From assembly GCF_000797465.1 (NCBI RefSeq), contig NZ_JSWG01000009.1, positions 620,001 to 684,000 on the forward strand: DNA of 64,000 bases, given 5' to 3'. How positions within the stretch are numbered: position 1 is the stretch's first letter; every line of letters begins with the position of its first letter. The DNA is from Psychroserpens jangbogonensis (lineage in GTDB: Bacteria > Bacteroidota > Bacteroidia > Flavobacteriales > Flavobacteriaceae). Below are positions 10,820 through 19,963 of the stretch, one piece after another. The notes under the pieces were generated by a model. The model did not search any database, was not told where the DNA came from, and saw only the letters and a list, made by a program, of their open reading frames with translations. Position numbers and translations under genes: made by a program.

Positions 10820-11524
10820 TCACCTAATATGTTTCTTGTAATAAGCAAATAAATCATCAGCCGAAGCACCAAACCATTTTTTGATATAGATGGTCCAAAA
10901 GTGATATTGCAATTTCCAAATACCATGCTTTTTATAGAGCCTTGCTGAAGTGCGAATCTTTTTATTAATGACAACAAATTGTTTTCTTTCGAAAAGTGCA
11001 TTAATCAATATGTTGTCTTCATAAATGATAAAGCTTTCATCATAACCACCAATATCATCAAATAACTCACGTGTAATAAACTGACTTTGATCACCACCTC
11101 TGCATGCACGCCATGAAAATTGTGTTAACCAACTCGCTAACCTCAACCACCAATGATTGCTATCAAATTGCATTCTGAAACATCCAGAAAGGTTATTATT
11201 GTTTACTTCATTTAAAATTAGTTCATCGTAATTTTTCGGCGGAAAAGAATCAGCATGAAGAAAATAAAGAATGTTACCAGTAGCATTTTTAGCTCCAAGA
11301 TTCATTTGTTTAGCACGTCCTTTTTCGGATTGTAAAAGCGTAATATTCGAGTAAATGGTTTGCATGTACGCAATTAAAGCACACGTATTGTCTTGACTTC
11401 CGCCATCAACCAAAATGATTTCGCTAATATTTGACTTTGATGAGTTTTCATTTAAATGAACAAGGAGTTTTCCAAGGTCTTTCTCTTCATTTAAAACAGG
11501 AATAATGATAGAAATCTTATTCAT
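10820..11524 (-). CDS. TIGR04283-type arsenosugar biosynthesis glycosyltransferase
   Basis: 234 residues of a GT2 GT-A fold: SIIIPVLNEEKDLGKLLVHL, IILVDGGSQDNT, EKGRAKQMNLGA, ILYFLHADSFPP, and FSWRACRGGDQSQFITRELFDDIGGYDE. This pattern is that of the TIGR04283 family, first called rSAM/selenodomain-associated transferase 2 and now linked to arsenosugar clusters. It would attach a sugar or a glycerol-type group to the arsenic-containing ribose; the exact step is not established. It overlaps the upstream DUF547 gene by 8 bp. Confidence 0.85.
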   Translation of the reverse strand: MNKISIIIPVLNEEKDLGKLLVHLNENSSKSNISEIILVDGGSQDNTCALIAYMQTIYSNITLLQSEKGRAKQMNLGAKNATGNILYFLHADSFPPKNYDELILNEVNNNNLSGCFRMQFDSNHWWLRLASWLTQFSWRACRGGDQSQFITRELFDDIGGYDESFIIYEDNILINALFERKQFVVINKKIRTSARLYKKHGIWKLQYHFWTIYIKKWFGASADDLFAYYKKHIR

Positions 11525-12407
11525 TCAAATTCCAGTTATAATCTTTGTAACTTTTTTTAGCTTTATCTGAAATTGTAACGTTTGAATATTGGTTTAAGAA
11601 GTCGATTAATGAACTTCCATTCGTTTTAAAATCGCCTCCATACCACTTAAATATTTTAGATACTTTGATGCTATTTTCACTTAGCTCATTTTTAGAAGTA
11701 TCATTTAAAAAGCCTTTAGTTAATAAAACTAAATCGGTTTCTAAATCTTTTGCAGTGAATGCTTTGTTGTATAAAATCGGACAAGAAACAGCGGCACAAA
11801 CTAGGGCGAAATGAATACGAGGTTCATCCATTTTACGAATGATTCTGTGTTCCACATCATTAAGTGTATACCATTTGTCACCAATTTTGATAAAACGATG
11901 ATTCCATGGTCCATCAATATCTTTAATGCTTTCTATTGGATAGTTATCTAAAATTAATTTAACCGTAAATGCATTGTAAACATTCATCCAATAGGCAAGC
12001 GTTTCATCCTTAGTCCAAGACTCTTGAGGAGGTGTTTCTGAAAGTGATTTTAGATAGGTGTTGAATCTTGTTTTATCTGCTCTAATTCCTTTGTAATTCA
12101 CATTGCCTTGATCTGAAACATGTTTTTGGAGTAGACTATTCCATAGATCGTGATTAAAGGATTCAATTTCAATGCTTTCAATTATTTCAGGTTCAACTAC
12201 AACTTCTGGAACAGTTTCAGAAGATTCCATTTCAGTCAAATCAGTCTCAGCAGGAGTTTCTATAACTTCTTCAATTTCAATTTCAACGATTTGCTCTTCT
12301 TTTTGAATCGTGTCTTCGGTTGGAGTAGTGCTTGCAATTTGTTTTGAACTACCACAAGAGACGATTAATAAAACAAGGATTAAAATGGAAATAGGTTTAA
12401 TGGACAT
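11517..12407 (-). CDS. DUF547 lipoprotein
   Basis: 296 residues. A lipoprotein signal (VLLIVSC, Cys near 18) is followed by an acidic Glu/Thr-rich linker (~25-80). A DUF547 domain then holds WMNVYNAFTVKLIL, IHFALVCAAVSCPIL and FKWYGGDF. The function of DUF547 is unknown. Conserved Cys and polar residues suggest a catalytic or metal-binding fold related to thiol proteases, which I cannot prove here. DUF547 genes commonly sit next to TIGR04283 transferases. It begins directly after the desaturase stop and runs into the glycosyltransferase by 8 bp, so all three form one operon. Confidence 0.8.
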   Translation of the reverse strand: MSIKPISILILVLLIVSCGSSKQIASTTPTEDTIQKEEQIVEIEIEEVIETPAETDLTEMESSETVPEVVVEPEIIESIEIESFNHDLWNSLLQKHVSDQGNVNYKGIRADKTRFNTYLKSLSETPPQESWTKDETLAYWMNVYNAFTVKLILDNYPIESIKDIDGPWNHRFIKIGDKWYTLNDVEHRIIRKMDEPRIHFALVCAAVSCPILYNKAFTAKDLETDLVLLTKGFLNDTSKNELSENSIKVSKIFKWYGGDFKTNGSSLIDFLNQYSNVTISDKAKKSYKDYNWNLNE

Positions 12408-13292
12408 CTACTTTTTGTTTAATGGATATAACTCCTGACTAATAAAATCTTTCGGGAATTGTTCGTCACCTTCAAAACCTAATTCTATGTCTCTTCCGCT
12501 ATGCGGAACATAATTTGTTTTAAAAATGTAATCCCAAATACTTAATGTTAGTCCGTAGTTAACTCCAAACCTAACATGCCTCGGAAGTTCTTTTGCATGA
12601 TGCCAGATATGCATCTTCGGATTATTGAAAATATATTTTAATTTTCCATAGTCCCAACCTAAATTAGCATGGTTGAGATGACCAATGACAATAGCAAAGA
12701 AATAGACTATGGCGACATCTTGAGCATCAAATCCACCAATAATTGCTATTGGAATATAGAGTAGTGATTTATAAACGATTGGTTCCATCCAATGGTAACG
12801 TAAATGCGCAGCAAATCCCATTTCTTTCACACTGTGGTGAACCTTGTGAAAATTCCACAATATAGGAAAGCGATGTAATAAACGATGTGTATTCCATTGC
12901 ACAAAATCACTCACTAAAAAGAAGATAAACAAGCCTAACCATTTTGGGAGATTATCTACATCAAACAATTGAAAATTGGAAATGGATAAGCCCAAAACAC
13001 CTAGTATGTCGTTAAAAAATTCAGCAGCTGAATTTGATAAGGCAATAAGCACAATGAGGTTTAAAAGAAAAAAATTGAAGAACATATAAAAGGTATCCAA
13101 CCAAAAATCTTTACGAAAGACGGCTTGATTTTTTCGCCAAGGAAAGGCAATTTCAAGAAGCCAAACAATTATGGAGATGGCGATTAAGCCATAGAAATAA
13201 TTGTCCCAATTATTTTGGAATAGAAGCTCATTTTTGAGATAATTCCAATACCCAGAGTACGAGTTTTTTATAATGTCAATATACTTTTCGAT
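12408..13292 (-). CDS. Sterol desaturase / fatty acid hydroxylase family membrane protein with no canonical start codon
   Basis: A di-iron membrane oxygenase with the histidine boxes HRLLH, FHKVHH and HHAKELPRH. It hydroxylates or desaturates lipids or cleaves ether lipids. The first standard start in frame is a TTG at 13100, which would cut the family N-terminus. The frame stays open and strongly protein-like upstream (EKYIDIIKN, then FPWRKNQAVFRKDFWLD), giving ~294 residues if an ATC at 13290-13292 is the start, in place of an expected ATG. The frame continues to the PiT stop at 13302-13304, with only TTA, GAA, CTT in between. Either a rare start codon, a mutation, or a read error is involved. 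Confidence 0.8.
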   Translation of the reverse strand: MEKYIDIIKNSYSGYWNYLKNELLFQNNWDNYFYGLIAISIIVWLLEIAFPWRKNQAVFRKDFWLDTFYMFFNFFLLNLIVLIALSNSAAEFFNDILGVLGLSISNFQLFDVDNLPKWLGLFIFFLVSDFVQWNTHRLLHRFPILWNFHKVHHSVKEMGFAAHLRYHWMEPIVYKSLLYIPIAIIGGFDAQDVAIVYFFAIVIGHLNHANLGWDYGKLKYIFNNPKMHIWHHAKELPRHVRFGVNYGLTLSIWDYIFKTNYVPHSGRDIELGFEGDEQFPKDFISQELYPLNKK

Positions 13293-13301
13293 AAGTTCTA
13301 A

Positions 13302-14417
13302 TTATGAAAGTGATTCTAATATTTTAAATAATAAAGCACTTACAATAGCTGCCATTGGAAGTGTGAGCAACCAAGATAATAATATTTTGCCAATCATTTT
13401 GTAATCGGCTTTTTTTGTGACGGTTCCAATTCCGAAAATAGAACCAACAGACACATGTGTTGTAGAAACAGGTAAACCATGTATACTTGCCGTTGTGACT
13501 AATAAACCAGTAACCATATTTGCAGTAAATCCTTGTCCAGAATTCATAGGTGTGATTTTTTTACTCATTGTGATACCTACTTTTTTTGAATTCAGTAATC
13601 CTCCAATAGCCATAACGATTGCTATAATTACCATACTCCATTTAATATCGATGGCATTTATTATTAATAATAATCCAACGATTTTAGGGGTGTCATTTAA
13701 ACCACGAGCGAAGCTTACGATTCCAGCACTTAAATAATGCAAGGCGTCTAAAACTTTTTGAGAACTTAAACCAAGAATTTGTCCATCGTAAGTTTCTATT
13801 TTATTTTGAATGGTAGCTTCAATTGTTTTTTTAGTTTTTAATGTGGCTACATTATCCATATTGAATGAAGCAACAGTAGTAGTTTGTTTCTCATGAATGT
13901 TGAGGTTTGTTTTTTTAGTTACTCCTAGTTGTTTCCTGAAAAACCTAAAGATGAGATATGCGATAAAGCTAACAATTGCTGCCATTAATGGGCTTACAAT
14001 TAAAGGCATTAAAAACGTTCCTCCGAGTTTTTCAAAATTGAATTGTGTGCCAACAGCCATTACTCCTGCACCAAATAAAGCACCTACTAAACTATGAGTA
14101 GTAGAAATAGGCATTCCAATTTTAGTTGCTATGAAAACGGTTAGTGCAGCGCCAAATGCTATAGATATTGCAAAAATAGGCATGGTTATTAGTTCATTTG
14201 GGACCAATCCTTTTCCAGAAAAGTTTTTCACTAATTCGTTTGCGAAAAAAATAGCGGCTACAGATCCAGAAAGTGTAGTGATAGTTGCCCAGTTTATTGC
14301 TTTTTTATAATTAGTTGTTCCACTCCCGAAGAGTGTAGCAACACCTTTAAAATTATCATTTGCTCCATTGCTATAGGCTAGAAAACATGCTGAAATAAAT
14401 AATAAGACTAAAATCAT
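13302..14417 (-). CDS. pit: PiT-family inorganic phosphate transporter
   Basis: About 371 residues and ten or so membrane segments. Both halves carry the PiT signature: FLAYSNGANDNFKGVATL near the N-terminus and VSFARGLNDTPKIVGLL near residue 237, plus two PISTTHSLVGA / PVSTTHVSVGS loops. PiT carriers move phosphate with H+ or Na+ and cannot fully exclude arsenate. Its place next to arsenosugar genes suggests arsenate entry or phosphate balance. The ATG at 14417 was chosen over a TTG at 14426. It lies beyond the arsM terminator and so probably has its own promoter. Its stop codon is in frame with the desaturase that follows. Confidence 0.9.
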   Translation of the reverse strand: MILVLLFISACFLAYSNGANDNFKGVATLFGSGTTNYKKAINWATITTLSGSVAAIFFANELVKNFSGKGLVPNELITMPIFAISIAFGAALTVFIATKIGMPISTTHSLVGALFGAGVMAVGTQFNFEKLGGTFLMPLIVSPLMAAIVSFIAYLIFRFFRKQLGVTKKTNLNIHEKQTTTVASFNMDNVATLKTKKTIEATIQNKIETYDGQILGLSSQKVLDALHYLSAGIVSFARGLNDTPKIVGLLLIINAIDIKWSMVIIAIVMAIGGLLNSKKVGITMSKKITPMNSGQGFTANMVTGLLVTTASIHGLPVSTTHVSVGSIFGIGTVTKKADYKMIGKILLSWLLTLPMAAIVSALLFKILESLS

Positions 14418-14487
14418 AGGGAGCAACTTTTGTTTTTATTGGACGAAAGAATAATTTTAAGCTTACAGTGATTCCTAGATATTACAC

Positions 14488-14516
14488 AAAAAAAGAACGC
14501 CTAATTAGGCGTTCTT
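14488..14516 (-). terminator. Intrinsic terminator of arsM
   Basis: A perfect 24-nt palindrome (14493-14516, arms AAGAACGCCTAA / TTAGGCGTTCTT). On the - strand it is followed by a run of seven T (14488-14494, partly within the stem). It starts 24 bp after the arsM stop and separates arsM from the PiT gene. Confidence 0.9.
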
Positions 14517-14539
14517 CATATTTTAATAGAATGTTGTTA

Positions 14540-15508
14540 CTAGCAACAACCACCACCATCATAATGAAATGTAGATTCGCTAAAAAAGATATCGTCTCTT
14601 CCTAAAGCTTGTAAAGCTCCAGCAGTTTTATCACAAATTGCTAAAGGTTGATTTTTAAGTAATACATGTCCTGCTTTATCATCAAAATAATCTTCTTCAC
14701 CATAGTAGATTGCAGCTTTTCCTGTGAAAATACATGGCCCATCACTAGGCATAGGATCTTTAATTGCAGCAACTTCAATAGATTCAATATAGATGAGTTC
14801 ATCTGTAGGATAGTGCTTAGGATCTAAAATACGATAAGGTTTTCTCGCCCTAATTTCTATAGTTCCAAAGCCTGCATCAGTTAGTGCTTTTACGTATTCT
14901 GAAATAGGTAAGCTTCCGCTTAAACATAAAGCTCTTAAACGATCGTCATTTCGCAATTCGTCGTTCATAGGTTGCTCACAAGTTGGGTCACTCATCACTA
15001 AACGACCATGAGGTTTTAGAACGCGATGCATTTCTTCAATAGCTTGCTTTAAATCTTCTGCCTTGAAAATATTAAATAAACAATTTTGAGCAGCAACATC
15101 AATACTATTATCTTCAACAGGAAGATTCATGGCATCACCTTTTTTAAGGTCTACAAATTCAGATTTAAACCAATCATTTTGTTCTTCAGCTTCAACGAAG
15201 TTTTTACGAGAAGCTTCCAACATTTCGTCTACAACATCAACACCAATAACACCTCCTTTTTGACGATTGAAATATGAGAATTGTAATAATTCCATACCAC
15301 CTCCAACACCAACATATAGCATTTTTGGATTGTTTGTTAAATCACGAGCATGAACTGTACTTCCGCAGCCGTAATTCATTTCTTGCATGATTCTCGGGAT
15401 TTTCAATCCTGGTAATTCCCAAATAGGATTCGTAGTACAGCATAACCCAACATCAGGTGTTAATGCTGCTTCTTTATATAAATCGTTAGTAGCGTTTAAG
15501 TAGCTCAT
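14540..15508 (-). CDS. arsM: Arsenosugar biosynthesis arsenite methyltransferase ArsM
   Basis: 322 residues. SAM-binding Rossmann motifs are visible: MLYVGVGGGMELLQ (67-71 GVGGG), GVDVVDEMLEAS, and LPVEDNSIDVAAQNCLFNIF. The Cys residues needed to hold As(III) are present: CC at 23-24, Cys48 in NYGCGST, PTCEQP, and a C-terminal GGGCC. ArsM methylates trivalent arsenic in steps, here expected to give the dimethyl form used by ArsS. The gene lies 80 bp after PNP, with two inverted repeats in that gap, and ends at a strong terminator. The match to the arsenosugar-type ArsM is from motif and context. Confidence 0.9.
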   Translation of the reverse strand: MSYLNATNDLYKEAALTPDVGLCCTTNPIWELPGLKIPRIMQEMNYGCGSTVHARDLTNNPKMLYVGVGGGMELLQFSYFNRQKGGVIGVDVVDEMLEASRKNFVEAEEQNDWFKSEFVDLKKGDAMNLPVEDNSIDVAAQNCLFNIFKAEDLKQAIEEMHRVLKPHGRLVMSDPTCEQPMNDELRNDDRLRALCLSGSLPISEYVKALTDAGFGTIEIRARKPYRILDPKHYPTDELIYIESIEVAAIKDPMPSDGPCIFTGKAAIYYGEEDYFDDKAGHVLLKNQPLAICDKTAGALQALGRDDIFFSESTFHYDGGGCC

Positions 15509-15539
15509 AGCTTAAGATTTTTATTTGATATTTAGTTTT

Positions 15540-15586
15540 ATAAAGGTAAGCCCTTTATCAATATTAGTGTGTAACATAGATTACAC
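15540..15586. promoter_or_regulatory. Two inverted repeats upstream of arsM
   Basis: ATAAAGG-TAAGC-CCTTTAT (15540-15558) and GTGTAA-CATAGA-TTACAC (15569-15586) lie in the 80-bp gap between PNP and arsM. The second has the spacing of CRP/FNR-family sites (two half-sites, 6-bp spacer). The GTGTAAT half-site recurs (- strand) near 14481-14487 before PiT and near 19031-19037 before the CMD gene. Either could be an operator or an attenuator. Confidence 0.4.
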
Positions 15587-15588
15587 GA

Positions 15589-16401
15589 TTAAATGGATTT
15601 TATTAGTTCTTTAAAAAGCGTAATCATATTAGGTTCTGCTTTTCCAGCCATTGCTATTATTGCTGCAATATCTACAGGTTCTAAATGATCTGGATCACAT
15701 TCGTCTGTTAATACTGAAATAGCAGCTGCTTTCATATTTAAATGATTAGCAACAATAATTTCAGGTACTGTACTCATGCCAACAGCATCGGCACCTATAA
15801 TTTTGAGCATTCTATATTCTGCTCTGGTTTCTAATTGAGGTCCAACTACGCTGGCATATACGCCTTCATGTAATTTTATATTATGTGCTTTTGCAATACT
15901 TTTAAACTTGGTATTTATTTCCAAATTGTAAGGTGCACTCATGTCTGTAAAACGTTCTCCTAAATTTTCAACACCTTTAAATGCTAATGGTGAACTTCCT
16001 TGTAAATTGATGTGATCATCAATCAACATTAATTCTCCTTTTTTAAAGTTGAGGTTAATCGCGCCAGCAGCATTCGAAACTAATAATGTTTTAATTCCTA
16101 ACTTTTCCATGATACGAACTGGAAAGGTAACATCTTGTAAAGAATAGCCTTCATATACATGAAAACGACCTTGCATTACGACCACTTTCTTTCCTGCCAG
16201 ATTTCCATAAATCAATTTCCCTTTATGAAATTCGACTGTTGCTGTTGGGAAATTAGGAATGTGATTATAACTCACCTCGCTAATCACTTCAATTTCGTTT
16301 GTGAGTTGGCCTAAACCTGTTCCCAAAATGATTCCGATTTCAGGGTTTTCAAAACCTTTATCAGCTAAATAATCTGCAGTTTCTGTTATGAATTTAATCA
16401 T
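15589..16401 (-). CDS. Purine nucleoside phosphorylase of the arsenosugar operon
   Basis: 270 residues of the trimeric PNP family. Motifs in order are GIILGTGLGQL (phosphate loop), HKGKLIYG, VVVMQGRFHVYEGY, VSNAAGAIN, GPQLETRAEYR and VGMSTVPEIIVANH. The enzyme splits purine nucleosides with phosphate. In this operon the likely substrate is the 5'-deoxy-5'-arsino-adenosine made by ArsS, leaving an arsenic-bearing ribose-1-phosphate for the glycosyltransferases. That role is inferred from context. A housekeeping salvage role is not excluded. It overlaps the upstream gene by 8 bp. Confidence 0.88.
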   Translation of the reverse strand: MIKFITETADYLADKGFENPEIGIILGTGLGQLTNEIEVISEVSYNHIPNFPTATVEFHKGKLIYGNLAGKKVVVMQGRFHVYEGYSLQDVTFPVRIMEKLGIKTLLVSNAAGAINLNFKKGELMLIDDHINLQGSSPLAFKGVENLGERFTDMSAPYNLEINTKFKSIAKAHNIKLHEGVYASVVGPQLETRAEYRMLKIIGADAVGMSTVPEIIVANHLNMKAAAISVLTDECDPDHLEPVDIAAIIAMAGKAEPNMITLFKELIKSI

Positions 16402-17023
16402 TAAGTTGTTTGATTTTATGTTGTAATTCTGTATTGTTTTTATAAAAATCCGATGCTTCTAAGTCTTCAAAAGTATCGATGTCATTTAAGACCTCTAAGG
16501 TACTAAATGTTGTATTGTTTTGTTTTAATTCTGAAAGAGTTTCTGATAACAAATGACTTTGGCTCCATGGTTTGTTTTGAAACACATTGTTGTTCATTTT
16601 AGACATTCCAATTAGGTAATAACCACCATCTTCTGCAGGTCCAAAGACAACTTCAGAGTTTTCTAATGCTTCTAATCCATTTTTAATATGAGATGCATGA
16701 ATGTCTGGCAAATCTGAACCGATTAAGACAATACGTTCGTAGCCATCTTCAAAACCTTTCAAGAATGCATTTTTCATTCGCTCACCTAAGTCAACACCTT
16801 CTTGAACCGCCTTATTTGCATTATTCCATTTGGTATTTACTATGGCGTCAGAGAAATAGATGCATAGAGATGTGTCAAGCTTTTTAGTAGCCTGTTCTGT
16901 AACTTTCAATAACTCTTTATAAACTTCAAATGCAGCTTGATTACCAATGGTTTTTGCAAGCCTAGTTTTTACTTTTCCTAGTTTTATGTTTTTCACGAAA
17001 ACAATGACGAGTTCCTTATTCAT
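16394..17023 (-). CDS. TIGR04282-type (CofC-like) arsenosugar biosynthesis transferase
   Basis: About 209 residues of a nucleotidyl/glycosyltransferase-like GT-A fold: LVIVFVKNIKLGKVKTRLAKTIG at the start, RIVLIGSDLPDI, FGPAEDGGYYLIGM, and VLNDIDTFEDL at the end. This is the pattern of TIGR04282 (formerly rSAM/selenodomain-associated transferase 1), related to CofC. It may activate or transfer a sugar-like unit. The ATG at 17023 was preferred because the protein then begins MNKELVIVF as in relatives; an ATG at 17038 also exists. It overlaps the genes on both sides by 8 bp. Confidence 0.87.
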   Translation of the reverse strand: MNKELVIVFVKNIKLGKVKTRLAKTIGNQAAFEVYKELLKVTEQATKKLDTSLCIYFSDAIVNTKWNNANKAVQEGVDLGERMKNAFLKGFEDGYERIVLIGSDLPDIHASHIKNGLEALENSEVVFGPAEDGGYYLIGMSKMNNNVFQNKPWSQSHLLSETLSELKQNNTTFSTLEVLNDIDTFEDLEASDFYKNNTELQHKIKQLND

Positions 17024-17510
17024 GTGTTTTGATTCCATTGTTTAACCATTTACTCCATTTTTCTGAAAATGTATGAATGCTATCGGTTTCATTGTTTTGA
17101 TTGTTATAAACTGAATGGTTGTTGTTTTTCCATTCGAAAATTCCACCATAAAGATTTTTTACATTGGAGTACCCTGCTTTTTTTAATTTACTTGCAATCA
17201 CTTCTGAACGAATTCCTAGTGAACAATACACAACGATTTCTTGATCTTTATTTGTTATTTGCTTCTCGATAGTTTCTATGTTGAAGTCGTCATATCCAAC
17301 CCAAAGCGCATCTTTTATATGGCTTACTCTGTATTCTTGTACTTCTCTAGCATCTAAATAAGTAGGTTCTGTTTGGAGTCTGTCTAAATCTTGAACATAG
17401 ATGTATGGCACCTCTTCGGTATTGTGTTTTTCTAGAAGCTGAGATAGTTTGTCTTGAGAAAAACTATAAACAGAAAAAAGGCATAATATGTAGAATAATA
17501 CTGTTTTCAT
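17016..17510 (-). CDS. Exported rhodanese-like protein of the arsenosugar operon
   Basis: About 164 residues. A signal peptide (MKTVLFYILCLFSVYSFSQ) leads a single rhodanese domain with YLDAREVQEYRVSHI and the active-site loop VYCSLGIRSE (Cys96), which fits a six-residue rhodanese loop. Rhodaneses carry sulfur (persulfide) or bind oxyanions. The related Cdc25/ACR2 fold reduces arsenate, so an arsenic-linked role is possible but not shown. The start at 17510 lies 1 bp after the arsS stop; a longer frame from 17561 would spoil the signal peptide. Confidence 0.8.
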   Translation of the reverse strand: MKTVLFYILCLFSVYSFSQDKLSQLLEKHNTEEVPYIYVQDLDRLQTEPTYLDAREVQEYRVSHIKDALWVGYDDFNIETIEKQITNKDQEIVVYCSLGIRSEVIASKLKKAGYSNVKNLYGGIFEWKNNNHSVYNNQNNETDSIHTFSEKWSKWLNNGIKTHE

Positions 17511-17511
17511 T

Positions 17512-18567
17512 TTAAGTAACTTCACCTTGACAACTACTTCCTGCTCCAGCTGTGCAGCCATAACAATGTTGAGAAATTACAATATTGCGTCCTTCTAGCA
17601 AGTCTTCATTAAACTCTGAAATATGCTTTACCTTACTGTTTACAGGTAATTCTAGCATTTGATTAAAATCACAATCGAATAAATATCCTTCCCAACTTAT
17701 TGATAAGGTATTTGTACACATGACATTTGCAACTGCTGTAGGATTATAAGCTTCTACCAATTGATACATATAATCTTCATAGTTTTCAGATGCAATTAAG
17801 TAGTCTAGAAAACGAGAAATTGGTAGGTTAGTGATAGCGAATAAGTTGTGAAATTGAATTCCGAAGTCATCAAGTAATGCTTTTTTGAAATCTTTTTCCA
17901 TAGACATTTGGTCTCCAGGTAAAAATGCTCCTGAAGGATTATAAACCAAGTCTAATTTTAAGTCACTATTTGGTATGCCATAACCAATAGCGTTTAGTTC
18001 TTGTAATGCCTTAATTGATTTGTCAAAAACACCATCGCCTCTTTGTTTATCTGTTTTTCCTCTTGTCCAATGTGGCATTGAACTTACGACATGAACATTA
18101 TGTTTTTTGAAAAATTCAGGTAAATCGTAATATTTTTTGTTAGCTCTAATAATGGTTAAGTTAGATCGAACAATAAAATCTTTAATTCCAACTTTGGCAG
18201 CTTCTTCAACAAACCATCTGAAATCTGGATTCATTTCTGGAGCTCCTCCTGTTAAATCTAGTGTATGTGCACCTGAATTTTTTATAACCTCCAAACACTG
18301 CTTCATAGTGTCTCTAGTCATAATTTCCTTTCGGTCTGGACCAGCATCAACATGGCAATGATCGCAAACTTGATTGCACATATAGCCAACATTAATCTGC
18401 AAAATTTCAAGCTTTTTTGCTTTTAGTGGAAATTGACTTGTTTCAGAAATCTTATTTTTAAAAGTTGGTAATTCTCCGTTTTGAAAAATACCATTTGATA
18501 ATATTTCTAATTGTCTATTGCTATTTGCTAAATCGCTTCCTTTTTTATGTAGGGACTTTGTTGCCAT
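17512..18567 (-). CDS. arsS: Arsenosugar biosynthesis radical SAM protein ArsS
   Basis: 351 residues. The radical SAM motif CNQVCDHCH (Cys64, Cys68, Cys71) binds the 4Fe-4S cluster, followed by LDLTGGAPEMNPDF (the GGE-like SAM motif). The DUF3641-type C-terminus holds further Cys (CTNTLSISWEGYLFDCDF and HCYGCTAGAGSSC) as expected for an ArsS with auxiliary clusters. ArsS transfers the 5'-deoxyadenosyl group of SAM onto dimethylarsenic(III), making the arsenosugar precursor. Earlier annotation of the family was radical SAM/Cys-rich protein. It is second in the operon, 60 bp after the CMD gene. Confidence 0.92.
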   Translation of the reverse strand: MATKSLHKKGSDLANSNRQLEILSNGIFQNGELPTFKNKISETSQFPLKAKKLEILQINVGYMCNQVCDHCHVDAGPDRKEIMTRDTMKQCLEVIKNSGAHTLDLTGGAPEMNPDFRWFVEEAAKVGIKDFIVRSNLTIIRANKKYYDLPEFFKKHNVHVVSSMPHWTRGKTDKQRGDGVFDKSIKALQELNAIGYGIPNSDLKLDLVYNPSGAFLPGDQMSMEKDFKKALLDDFGIQFHNLFAITNLPISRFLDYLIASENYEDYMYQLVEAYNPTAVANVMCTNTLSISWEGYLFDCDFNQMLELPVNSKVKHISEFNEDLLEGRNIVISQHCYGCTAGAGSSCQGEVT

Positions 18568-18627
18568 TAAATGTATAGGGTTTGTAAGCTTTAAAAAATG
18601 AATTTGGTCAGATATGAGGTAGTTAGG

Positions 18628-18963
18628 TTAACCATCTAATTTATTTATTTTATTCATCATCTGAACACCATGTACTAAAGTAGCTCCACCTTTTATTGCT
18701 GCTCCAACATGAATAGCTTCCATCATTTCTTCTTTTGTAATACCTCTTTGTAAACCGTCTTGAGAATAAGCATCTATACAATATGGACATTGTTCGGTAT
18801 GTGAAACTGCTAAAGCAATTAGTGATTTCTCTCTAGCACTTAATGCGCCTTCTTCGAATACTTTTCCGTAGTATTCAAAAAATTTATTTCCCAATTCTTC
18901 ACTCCATTCTGTGATTTTACCAAATTTTTTAAGATCTGCTGGGTCGTAGTAAGTCTTTGACAT
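18628..18963 (-). CDS. Arsenosugar biosynthesis-associated CMD/AhpD peroxidase-like protein
   Basis: 111 residues, one carboxymuconolactone decarboxylase/AhpD domain with the redox pair CPYC (Cys59, Cys62) in SHTEQCPYCIDAYSQDG. The family (TIGR04029-like) is found next to ArsS. It may reduce an organic peroxide or keep arsenic or a thiol partner reduced. It is the first gene of the leftward operon, and the ATG at 18963 fits. Its upstream region holds a GTGTAATCT element close to those before PiT and arsM. Confidence 0.88.
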   Translation of the reverse strand: MSKTYYDPADLKKFGKITEWSEELGNKFFEYYGKVFEEGALSAREKSLIALAVSHTEQCPYCIDAYSQDGLQRGITKEEMMEAIHVGAAIKGGATLVHGVQMMNKINKLDG

Positions 18964-19090: not shown

Positions 19091-19963
19091 TTAAGATTTT
19101 AAAAAAGCACTGAAGTTACCTTCAACTAATCTCGGTGTGTCTAAAAGGTTGTATTTTTTCTGAGCTTCTTCATCTTTCCAAACTGTTTTTACACCAAGTT
19201 GATCACTCATGAGGTGTGAGTCGTATCTAGATGTTAGTAAAGCATACAGATAGTTTTTAATTGGTGTGTCTCTGTAAAATTTTAAAACAGTTCCAATGAT
19301 GTAGAAAAAATTTTCGTTGCAATCTGCAGTAATGCTATGACAATAAAAAACAGGGTTATCGTGATTTTTATAATTGATTAAGTCACGTGGTTTAAGCTGA
19401 TTTTCATCAATTTCACGATTCTTAATTTTTAGATAAGTCTCCATGCTTAATGGAAAATAAATGCAGTGTCCAGAATAGTAGCCAGATTGGTCATGTATAG
19501 CAATATTTAATTCTGGTAAGAGTTTACAAGCTTCAGTTATCAAGTCTATATTTTGGCTTTTTAATGGGTTTTTCTGAAGTTCAATAAAGCGTATGATATT
19601 TTTTAAATCATTATGTAATGAAATCTGTTTTATGCGATCTGTTTCATTGTTAATCCTTGATTTAATCCAGTTGGCATCTGGTAAATCACTAGAAATAGCC
19701 GATAATGAGTATTTACGTAAATCGAAATCGTAAAATGTTGGAATTTGAGTTGTTGTGTTTAAGTTTCGTATCACTTGATAAGGAATAAAAGTGATGTCTG
19801 CCATTGCATTTTCTTTATCACTACTTAACAGTGTTTCGTTTTTTTCCCATCGTATCACAGAACGAATATCTACATCAAATTCAGAGGCTAGTTCTGATTG
19901 AGATATACTATGGTATGATCTGTAATCAGTCATTAAATCGCCTAAAGTCTTATATTTTTTCAT
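19091..19963 (-). CDS. HTH (XRE-like) protein with an unknown C-terminal domain
   Basis: 290 residues. The first ~60 residues form a Cro/CI-type helix-turn-helix (LGDLMTDYRSYHSISQSELASEFDVDIRSVIRWEKNE). The remaining ~230 residues are mixed alpha/beta with conserved-looking stretches (GYYSGHCIYFPLSMETYLKI, FYCHSITADCN, LLTSRYDSHLMSDQLG) that I do not recognise. Some features recall acyltransferase-like folds, but no motif is clear. It lies between the arsenosugar operon and the purine genes and may regulate either one. No ArsR or Lac/Gnt-type regulator is nearby. Confidence 0.6.
   Translation of the reverse strand: MKKYKTLGDLMTDYRSYHSISQSELASEFDVDIRSVIRWEKNETLLSSDKENAMADITFIPYQVIRNLNTTTQIPTFYDFDLRKYSLSAISSDLPDANWIKSRINNETDRIKQISLHNDLKNIIRFIELQKNPLKSQNIDLITEACKLLPELNIAIHDQSGYYSGHCIYFPLSMETYLKIKNREIDENQLKPRDLINYKNHDNPVFYCHSITADCNENFFYIIGTVLKFYRDTPIKNYLYALLTSRYDSHLMSDQLGVKTVWKDEEAQKKYNLLDTPRLVEGNFSAFLKS

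Follow-up and report, generated by a model that had tools for sequence, protein, structure and literature searches.

A ten-gene arsenosugar cluster in Psychroserpens jangbogonensis and candidate enzymes for the late steps of the pathway

Which enzymes carry out the later steps of arsenosugar biosynthesis? Passages of PMC11009773 describe arsenosugars as the main form of water-soluble arsenic in marine algae. In the literature covered here, mainly open-access and represented by titles, the starts of abstracts, and the passages cited, enzymes are tied only to the early steps (ArsM and ArsS), and no test of PNP, MTAP, TIGR04282, or TIGR04283 in the pathway was recognised. A sequence-only reading of the present locus had held that few such systems have been studied outside cyanobacteria and algae. 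Few papers were indeed found in this mainly open-access literature; the implied rarity in bacteria does not survive the genome counts given below. The make-up of the cluster suggests enzymes that may perform the late steps of the pathway.

The locus lies in a window of 64,000 nucleotides, the whole stretch analysed (contig NZ_JSWG01000009.1, positions 620,001 to 684,000). It is an arsenosugar cluster of ten genes, all on the - strand, at 10820-18963, and it exceeds the six genes first described. The features, with bit scores and cut-offs, are as follows.

18628..18963, - strand: CMD/AhpD-like arsenosugar-associated peroxidase-like protein, CPYC motif (TIGR04169, 190.6 bits, cut-off 120)
17512..18567, - strand: ArsS, radical SAM enzyme (TIGR04167, 440.4 bits, cut-off 300)
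17016..17510, - strand: exported-looking rhodanese, start taken at 17510 (NF045521, 200.1 bits, cut-off 145)
16394..17023, - strand: TIGR04282, nucleotidyltransferase-fold enzyme annotated as a glycosyltransferase (198 bits, cut-off 134)
15589..16401, - strand: nucleoside phosphorylase (PNP I family) with Asp233 and Ile245 (NF006054, 343.6 bits, cut-off 218)
14540..15508, - strand: ArsM, arsenosugar-type arsenite methyltransferase (NF038099, 573.6 bits, cut-off 400)
14492..14517, - strand: terminator-like stem-loop in the ArsM/Pit gap, symmetrical on both strands
13302..14426, - strand: Pit-type inorganic phosphate transporter (PHO4, 225.1 bits, cut-off 33.7)
12408..13292, - strand: sterol-desaturase/fatty acid hydroxylase-like protein (93.6 bits, cut-off 31, scored on a 230-aa ORF)
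11517..12407, - strand: DUF547 protein (87.3 bits, cut-off 27)
10820..11524, - strand: TIGR04283, GT2-family arsenosugar glycosyltransferase (233.7 bits, cut-off 182)

The six - strand ORFs from the CMD gene to ArsM, which the sequence-only reading had taken as the core operon, are all present where it had placed them. Each scores above the curated NCBIfam cut-off of its best family, and by a wide margin, so the family assignments stand; ArsS or ArsM scores under the cut-offs, named by that reading as a refutation, did not occur. As a description of the cluster, six genes is too few: TIGR04283, the DUF547 gene, the sterol-desaturase-like gene, and the phosphate transporter also belong to it. 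The CMD gene, for which TIGR04029 had been suggested, matches TIGR04169, and TIGR04029 is absent among the matches listed. Of the several 8-bp overlaps reported, that of PNP with TIGR04282 is present (16394-16401) and that of TIGR04282 with the rhodanese requires the second ATG (17023). The rhodanese/ArsS overlap is confined to the longest ORF and vanishes with the rhodanese start at 17510, which gives 164 aa as in several relatives. DUF547 and TIGR04283 also overlap by 8 bp (11517-11524). The sterol-desaturase-like frame is open from the Pit stop and has ATC where relatives, many of 293-298 aa, have their start Met.

Does the cluster end at the palindromic terminator downstream of ArsM, as had been proposed? 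The stem-loop exists: positions 14517-14492 hold an 11-pair stem and a T-run, the longest stem among 6 terminator-like sites in 10 kb, a number of sites not above chance given the 4.4 +/- 2.4 of shuffled sequence. The cluster continues past it, because the four same-strand genes beyond recur with the cluster elsewhere. Promoter scanning was uninformative, with 45 sigma-70-like sites observed and 47.6 expected; the sigma-70 consensus may not suit the Bacteroidota, the phylum of the host. An upstream HTH-like gene (19091-19963) was rejected as a cluster regulator, having no family match and no relative labelled in 80 family stretches. None of the ten genes matched an ArsR-type regulator in the family searches.

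The chemistry of ArsM and ArsS is established for other family members, and the cysteines singled out from the sequence are invariant. All 171 aligned ArsS proteins (300-420 aa, BLAST >200 bits to the window ArsS) carry Cys at C64, C68, and C71 of the CxxxCxxC motif and at C284, C299, C335, C338, and C346. In ArsM, the pairs C23, C24 and C321, C322 are conserved as Cys across all 92 aligned proteins (300-360 aa, BLAST >250 bits). The same holds for ArsM C48/C143/C195, which align with C72/C174/C224 of 4kw7, residues that we take to be the three As-binding catalytic Cys of CmArsM. An arsinothricin-type model gives the window ArsM 100.3 bits, far under its cut-off of 500.

We consider the chances evenly balanced that the ten genes form an arsenosugar biosynthesis cluster that runs from ArsM and ArsS through a phosphorylase to activation by TIGR04282 and transfer by TIGR04283. 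Arsenate, we infer, would enter with phosphate via Pit and then be reduced. ArsM would methylate arsenite twice, and ArsS would use SAM to attach a 5'-deoxyadenosyl group to dimethylarsenite, yielding 5'-deoxy-5'-dimethylarsinoyl-adenosine. The next three proteins, like Pit firmly placed in their families, would supply the later steps. PNP (MTA phosphorylase in some Proteobacteria) would exchange adenine for phosphate, yielding dimethylarsinoyl-ribose-1-phosphate; TIGR04282 would activate this product as a nucleotide sugar; and the GT2 enzyme TIGR04283 would move the arsenic sugar onto a lipid head group or glycerol. Accessory roles would fall to the rhodanese, the AhpD-like protein, the DUF547 protein, and the hydroxylase. 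A specific candidate for every later step can be named from the cluster and its relatives. For an algal arsenolipid, passages of PMC10456119 ascribe adenine loss to a hypothetical nucleosidase.

How closely is the phosphorylase bound to the arsenic genes? Among 199 Flavobacteriaceae genomes, a PNP homologue is present in all 148 with ArsS versus 27 of 51 without (Fisher 4e-17), and a hand count of genomes >=90% complete gives 130/130 versus 22/35 (2e-10), both p values being too small because the genomes are related. Gene order, labelled by longest-ORF calling and BLAST, is similarly regular. In loci L032-L191, TIGR04282 lies directly upstream of 106 of 128 PNP genes, and ArsM is the next gene after PNP in 77 of the 82 cases with ArsM in the locus. 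The rhodanese-TIGR04282-PNP-ArsM block stays intact where ArsS has relocated (e.g., L072, L074, L078). The genome counts and the PNP-ArsM adjacency that outlasts relocation of ArsS speak against a bystander PNP, that is, an ordinary purine-salvage gene travelling with the arsenosugar genes while another nucleosidase removes adenine, an explanation that we judge unlikely yet worth serious weight. In its favour, the host genome has one PNP match only, so the enzyme probably serves purine salvage too, and orphan PNPs of the same type occur in ArsS-less genomes (G155, G029, G028, G040, G053, and G021). Moreover, of the 38 phylum-sample loci, two (L224 and L258) have PNP near ArsS; these two come from the window's own family, a fact that shifts weight from our best explanation to the bystander. 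The labelling overlooked ArsS in L237 and L240, the ArsS annotated in L265, and the MTAP of L266; the content of L265 and L266 was taken from record annotation, and L237 and L240 do not count among the 38. Outside the family, PNP nevertheless lies near ArsS in named loci, for example in Fulvivirga (L187) and in a MAG of Cyclobacteriaceae (L190). In three Proteobacteria, similar company is kept by a different phosphorylase, MTAP, which lies <=2.3 kb from TIGR04282 in ArsS regions of Acinetobacter, Burkholderia glumae, and Cupriavidus, on the opposite strand and with two other genes in between in Acinetobacter. On the plasmids of Hymenobacter, Pseudanabaena, and Thiodictyon, the annotation shows neither MTAP nor PNP in the vicinity of ArsS.

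The active site of the window PNP bears on its substrate. The protein scores 290.9 bits with TIGR01700 (inosine/guanosine-specific PNP I), narrowly under the cut-off of 293.35, and 91.0 bits with the MTA phosphorylase model TIGR01694, below its cut-off of 274.85. Judged by its sequence, it is not an MTAP family member and at most would work like one. Asp233 and Ile245 align with an Asn and a His of the solved PNP 8swu, which we take to be the base contact and the 5' contact of inosine/guanosine-specific PNPs. Passages of PMC10911062 report human PNP Asn243 and His257 as inosine-binding, and those of PMC4308819 describe a human PNP simulation with no lasting bond from 5'-OH to His257 with its inhibitor. 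Neither residue serves as a clean marker of the cluster. Asp233 was discarded as such, as Asp occurs in every readable Bacteroidota PNP, cluster-linked or not. The specificity of Ile245 to ArsS genomes is weakened by the tree, in which 12 of the 33 PNPs of ArsS-less genomes carry Ile/Val. The family's Ile/Val PNPs fall to the same side of a single branch; the genome counts therefore do not represent independent events. One pair of loci, L190 (cluster, Ile) and L270 (ArsS-less, Leu), hints at parallel change, a single case; in the pair L189/L271, Ile is found both with and without ArsS.

Could PNP instead aid arsenate reduction through nucleoside arsenolysis, supplying arsenite to ArsM? A passage of PMC12608789 reports arsenate reduction by PNP in vitro and calls its in vivo relevance unknown. 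Such a role would suit the neighbourhood, which includes a thiol protein of AhpD type, a rhodanese, and a phosphate transporter. However, the host genome carries two putative ArsC-family proteins (PF03960), and arsenolysis leaves both the 5'-pocket residue and the MTAPs unexplained; we consider it very improbable.

The TIGR04282 step depends on what this protein is. Its AF2 model (mean pLDDT 95.6) retrieves 3cgx at rank 1 of a fold search, followed at ranks 2-10 by Rv2983, MM2497, 3-phosphoglycerate guanylyltransferase, and an Rv0371c homologue; KdsB and GlmU are also among the matches listed. We take the Rv2983, MM2497, and Rv0371c-type entries to be CofC/FbiD- and MocA-like nucleotidyltransferases. 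Among the best 50 matches, ranks 2-40 are of nucleotidyltransferase type, by their titles or usual assignment. By sequence, CofC models match as well (TIGR03552, 45.7 bits, below the NCBIfam cut-off of 105). On this modelled fold, the label "glycosyltransferase" appears doubtful. It is the name used by NCBIfam and RefSeq, the depositors of 3cgx call their protein a putative nucleotide-diphospho-sugar transferase, and glycosyltransferases do appear from rank 41. Given the higher ranks, we find it improbable that TIGR04282 is a glycosyltransferase acting directly on a sugar-1-phosphate or nucleoside.

The cluster is common in marine flavobacteria and, as such, ordinary. ArsS exceeds its cut-off in 148 of 199 Flavobacteriaceae genomes and in 104 of 247 genomes across the phylum, and it occurs on plasmids of Pseudomonadota and of a cyanobacterium; a bacterial host with this set is thus not unusual. 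A matching ArsM is found in 117 of the 148 family genomes with ArsS versus 0 of the 51 without. The ten genes recur in identical order in Paucihalobacter ruber (L131). In the fetched loci, TIGR04283, tracked as cluster c0 in the 80 family stretches, is the next gene after 75 of 95 DUF547 genes, and Pit directly follows 8 of 86 ArsM genes; Pit also adjoins the methyltransferase in L264. Such wide conservation, together with the lack of an ArsR-type gene, would fit an everyday substrate other than arsenic, whether another metalloid or a common metabolite, and this would explain why most family genera keep the cluster. We give that idea a slight chance only: the window ArsM can be aligned to a solved arsenite methyltransferase with all three catalytic Cys conserved, phosphate transporters are recurrent members of the cluster in two phyla, and neither an ACR3 nor an ArsB efflux pump was found in the host genome, so another way of handling arsenic is expected.

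In a variant arrangement, a SusCD-symporter-phosphoesterase uptake module, whose phosphoesterase marks 28 of 199 family genomes, adjoins ArsS and ArsM is often absent, which suggests scavenging of methylated or sugar-bound arsenic instead of own methylation. The full proposal is tentative, and we hold it at somewhat less than even confidence: a complete nucleotide-sugar route whose phosphorylase is PNP in Flavobacteriaceae and in part of the other Bacteroidota and, in some Proteobacteria, an MTAP recruited independently, together with a misnamed TIGR04282, transfer by TIGR04283, and uptake-module strains that scavenge arsenic. Because this machinery is spread widely through a large family with many marine heterotrophs, members of the family may make or recycle organic arsenic without having been recognised as doing so.

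TIGR04282 has its fold in common with the CofC/FbiD guanylyltransferases and matches them in sequence, although it scores below the CofC cut-off and would be expected to act on a different substrate. The MTAPs of Acinetobacter portensis (L264) and B. glumae (L266) keep gene company similar to that of the window PNP, and the L264 enzyme belongs with it to superfamily PF01048; theirs is the MTAP family, whereas the window's is PNP I. In Burkholderia gladioli, arsQML likewise pairs a radical SAM enzyme with ArsM on a C-As compound, arsinothricin, but the group that ArsL is predicted to transfer there is 3-amino-3-carboxypropyl (passages of PMC8552651). All five families of the NCBIfam arsenosugar cluster, TIGR04167, NF038099, TIGR04282, TIGR04283, and TIGR04169, exceed their cut-offs here within 8.2 kb, and the window adds PNP, rhodanese NF045521, Pit, the sterol-desaturase-like protein, and DUF547, all recurring with it. 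Finally, Synechocystis PCC 6803 likewise uses ArsM and the radical SAM enzyme ArsS for the first steps, as described in the same passages of PMC8552651; to this pair, the window adds candidate enzymes for the later steps.

The arsenosugar locus of the window is a ten-gene cluster spanning 10820-18963. The sequence-only reading had described six genes, at 14540-18963, as a core operon ending at a palindromic terminator. All six minus-strand open reading frames are present there, and the family reading holds: CMD (TIGR04169), the radical SAM enzyme ArsS (TIGR04167), rhodanese (NF045521), TIGR04282, the nucleoside phosphorylase PNP (NF006054), and the arsenite methyltransferase ArsM (NF038099) all score above their curated NCBIfam cut-offs. 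The terminator-like site does not end the cluster. Four more genes, including TIGR04283, lie on the same strand below it; thus, the cluster comprises ten genes.

Features below ArsM
14517-14492, terminator-like site, below ArsM and above Pit
13302-14426, minus strand, PHO4/Pit phosphate transporter (profile search)
12408-13292, minus strand, sterol-desaturase-like hydroxylase (profile search)
11517-12407, minus strand, DUF547 protein (profile search)
10820-11524, minus strand, TIGR04283 (233.7 bits versus a cut-off of 182)

Because the terminator-like site falls inside the cluster, the ten genes probably form two transcription units. The hydroxylase frame opens straight after the Pit stop codon (13290-13301), and the window has ATC where relatives' hydroxylases have the start methionine, so either translation begins at an uncommon codon or the start of the gene is damaged. 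Upstream of the cluster, 19091-19963 encodes an HTH-like protein of 290 amino acids that has no match in Pfam or NCBIfam.

Gene order was compared in two sets of 80 loci, with genes labelled by BLAST. One set comprised Flavobacteriaceae stretches picked by place, not at random, from genomes of known ArsS, PNP, and ArsM match status; ArsS is present in 51 of the 80, and 43 of those 51 also carry PNP. The other comprised the named ArsS loci that best matched the query alignment; 59 of these 80 hold PNP, with contig ends falling inside some. Of the 128 PNPs longer than 240 amino acids in fetched loci L032-L191, 106 have TIGR04282 as the gene immediately upstream and 77 have ArsM as the gene immediately downstream; where the locus holds ArsM at all, it is the next gene after PNP in 77/82. 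Among 86 ArsM genes, 24 are followed by DUF547, 22 by the hydroxylase, 8 by Pit, and 2 by PstS; DUF547 is followed by TIGR04283 in 75 of 95 cases. Paucihalobacter ruber (L131) carries the window's exact ten genes in identical order with none intervening.

Besides the window, ten further fetched Bacteroidota loci have Pit inside the cluster, as do the plasmid loci L263 and L264, while L048 and L137 carry pstSCA in its place. Reading of L048:329-3740 shows apparent phosphate ABC transporter genes (pstSCAB) after ArsM, in the window's Pit slot. The organism's own genome yielded neither ACR3 nor ArsB when these were sought, and it encodes two ArsC-family proteins of unsettled class. Together, these features fit detoxification of arsenate coimported with phosphate. 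Arsenate detoxification and dimethylarsenate turnover are described in ocean plankton, in an account that does not name Bacteroidota (PMC6426599).

In many relatives, the neighborhood of ArsS includes genes for SusC, SusD, a sodium/solute symporter, and a metallophosphoesterase. All four genes accompany ArsS in 34 fetched loci (including L052-L065 and L067-L070), two of which, L233 and L260, belong to other families. Of the 199 family genomes, 29 have the module's phosphoesterase (E up to 1e-60); every one of them also encodes ArsS, within 10 kb of the phosphoesterase in each case except genome G087. ArsM is missing from 14 of these 29 versus 17 of the 119 other ArsS genomes (Fisher 1.9e-4, a value made too small by the relatedness of the genomes). 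In G045, a genome of the window's genus, the module is present (C8:181258-191646) and no ArsM exceeds the cut-off. One explanation is that module-bearing strains scavenge methylated or sugar-bound arsenic. In L066 (4691-12230), this slot instead appears to be filled by a different TonB-dependent-receptor-like protein together with ABC transporter genes and a further radical SAM-like protein.

In the window's ArsM, C48, C143, and C195 align with the arsenic ligands C72, C174, and C224 of an arsenite methyltransferase of known structure (4kw7). In alignments filtered by length and score, nine of the ten window ArsM cysteines are invariant in 92/92 ArsM sequences and the tenth, C177, is Cys in 89, while eight ArsS cysteines are invariant in 171/171. 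A sequence search of solved structures with ArsS returned no match. In oxo-arsenosugar biosynthesis, arsenic is reported to be adenosylated by a radical SAM enzyme (PMC12159101), and SsArsS is reported to act together with SsArsM (PMC8552651).

The AF2 model of TIGR04282 (49 sequences; mean pLDDT 95.6) has as its top Foldseek match in the PDB 3cgx, deposited as a putative nucleotide-diphospho-sugar transferase and also matched by sequence. Next come Rv2983, MM2497, 3-phospho-D-glycerate guanylyltransferase, Rv0371c, KdsB, IspD, and GlmU; glycosyltransferases first appear at rank 41 among the best 50 folds. These nucleotidyltransferase-like neighbors of the model argue for nucleotidyl transfer. 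GlmU-type relatives use sugar-1-phosphates. The cluster's phosphorylase would form a sugar-1-phosphate, from which TIGR04282 and the GT2 enzyme TIGR04283 could complete a nucleotide-sugar route. Given that all three are encoded in one cluster, we infer that such a route would be the simplest assembly of its enzymes. A second TIGR04282-like protein (L053:3954-4637; 105.7 bits versus a cut-off of 134) occurs with ArsS in many relatives.

Two PNP positions may bear on the substrate: a base contact, Asp233 in the window, and the 5' site, Ile245; the solved PNP 8swu has Asn and His. Human PNP is reported to bind inosine via Asn243, Glu201, Tyr88, and His257 (PMC10911062), and a simulation with an inhibitor found no lasting bond between the inhibitor 5'-OH and His257 (PMC4308819). 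Among family genomes, a PNP homolog accompanies ArsS in 148/148 versus 27/51 without ArsS (Fisher 4e-17; four of the 24 PNP-less genomes were deduced from the list of matched genomes). A hand count of genomes at least 90% complete gave 130/130 versus 22/35 (p = 2e-10). Because the genomes are related, both p-values are too small. In ten of the 27 ArsS-less genomes with PNP, the homolog is only 45-54% identical to the window's, and ArsS-less G146 has a broken PNP. Among the seven of those ten whose sequences were inspected, six carry His at the 5' site, and the G116 match ends before it. Equally divergent PNPs (50-53%) from ArsS genomes G035, G065, and G185 have Ile. Across loci up to L260, the site is Ile or Val in 131/131 readable PNPs, the window's and orphans from ArsS-less genomes included (three were unreadable). 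In a 103-row tree, Ile/Val occurs in 70/70 PNPs from ArsS genomes; those from ArsS-less genomes have Ile/Val (12), His (11), or Leu (9), with one unread. Thus, a hydrophobic 5' site accompanies ArsS within the family yet is not exclusive to ArsS genomes. In this tree, all of the family's Ile/Val PNPs fall to one side of a branch (support 100/100), so the site may reflect a single ancestral event. By analogy with MTA phosphorylase (MTAP), the combination of Asp and a hydrophobic residue in the cluster PNP would favor adenine nucleosides whose 5' group is not a hydroxyl. Asp also occupies the first site in the MTAPs of L263, L264, and L266.

These MTAPs come from ArsS loci outside the family. 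Acinetobacter portensis L264 has the order ArsS, TVP38/FAD protein, DUF547, TIGR04283, TIGR04282, methyltransferase, Pit, followed on the opposite strand by mtnP and a sterol desaturase; the methyltransferase best matches an arsenite methyltransferase model, below cut-off (177.1 bits versus 263). This nearly complete arsenosugar cluster is borne on a plasmid named pJNE5-X3_NDM-1. In Burkholderia glumae L266, MTAP adjoins TIGR04283 and TIGR04282, with ArsS and DUF547 in the same region. In Cupriavidus KK10 L263 (tblastn), TIGR04283, partial TIGR04282, and MTAP lie consecutively on one strand, 2-4.4 kb after ArsS. MTAP thus accompanies ArsS in three of six plasmid lineages examined; none was found within 8-9 kb of ArsS on Hymenobacter, Pseudanabaena, and Thiodictyon plasmids. 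Among 40 phylum-wide stretches (ArsS called in 38; genes counted only near ArsS), TIGR04282 occurs in 21/38, TIGR04283 in 17/38, and PNP in 2/38, both from the window's own family. Among the named loci from outside the family, PNP does occur near or next to ArsS, for example in Fulvivirga imtechensis (L187) and in MAGs of Cyclobacteriaceae (L190) and Bacteroidia (L188). A phosphorylase gene is thus linked to ArsS in certain lineages but not in others.

Of 199 family genomes (198 genera), 148 have an ArsS above cut-off, as do 104 of 247 genomes sampled across the phylum. ArsM (NF038099) exceeds its cut-off in 117 family genomes, all with ArsS (117/148 versus 0/51 without). Plasmid ArsS matches number 54 records, 47 of them Burkholderia; the Paraclostridium and Streptomyces plasmid matches are weak hits to other radical SAM proteins. 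Among the best 80 matches, the closest named ArsS relatives (92-93% identical) are Flavobacteriaceae, e.g., Gaetbulibacter, Winogradskyella, and Algibacter. The ArsS on a contig titled Chlorobiota bacterium (L135) shares 85% identity with that of the window, so the title is probably wrong for this contig. The survey shows that the cluster is widespread within Flavobacteriaceae, where it is an ordinary example of an already known type of system. Its added value is as a comparative case for the enzymes of the unassigned late arsenosugar steps.
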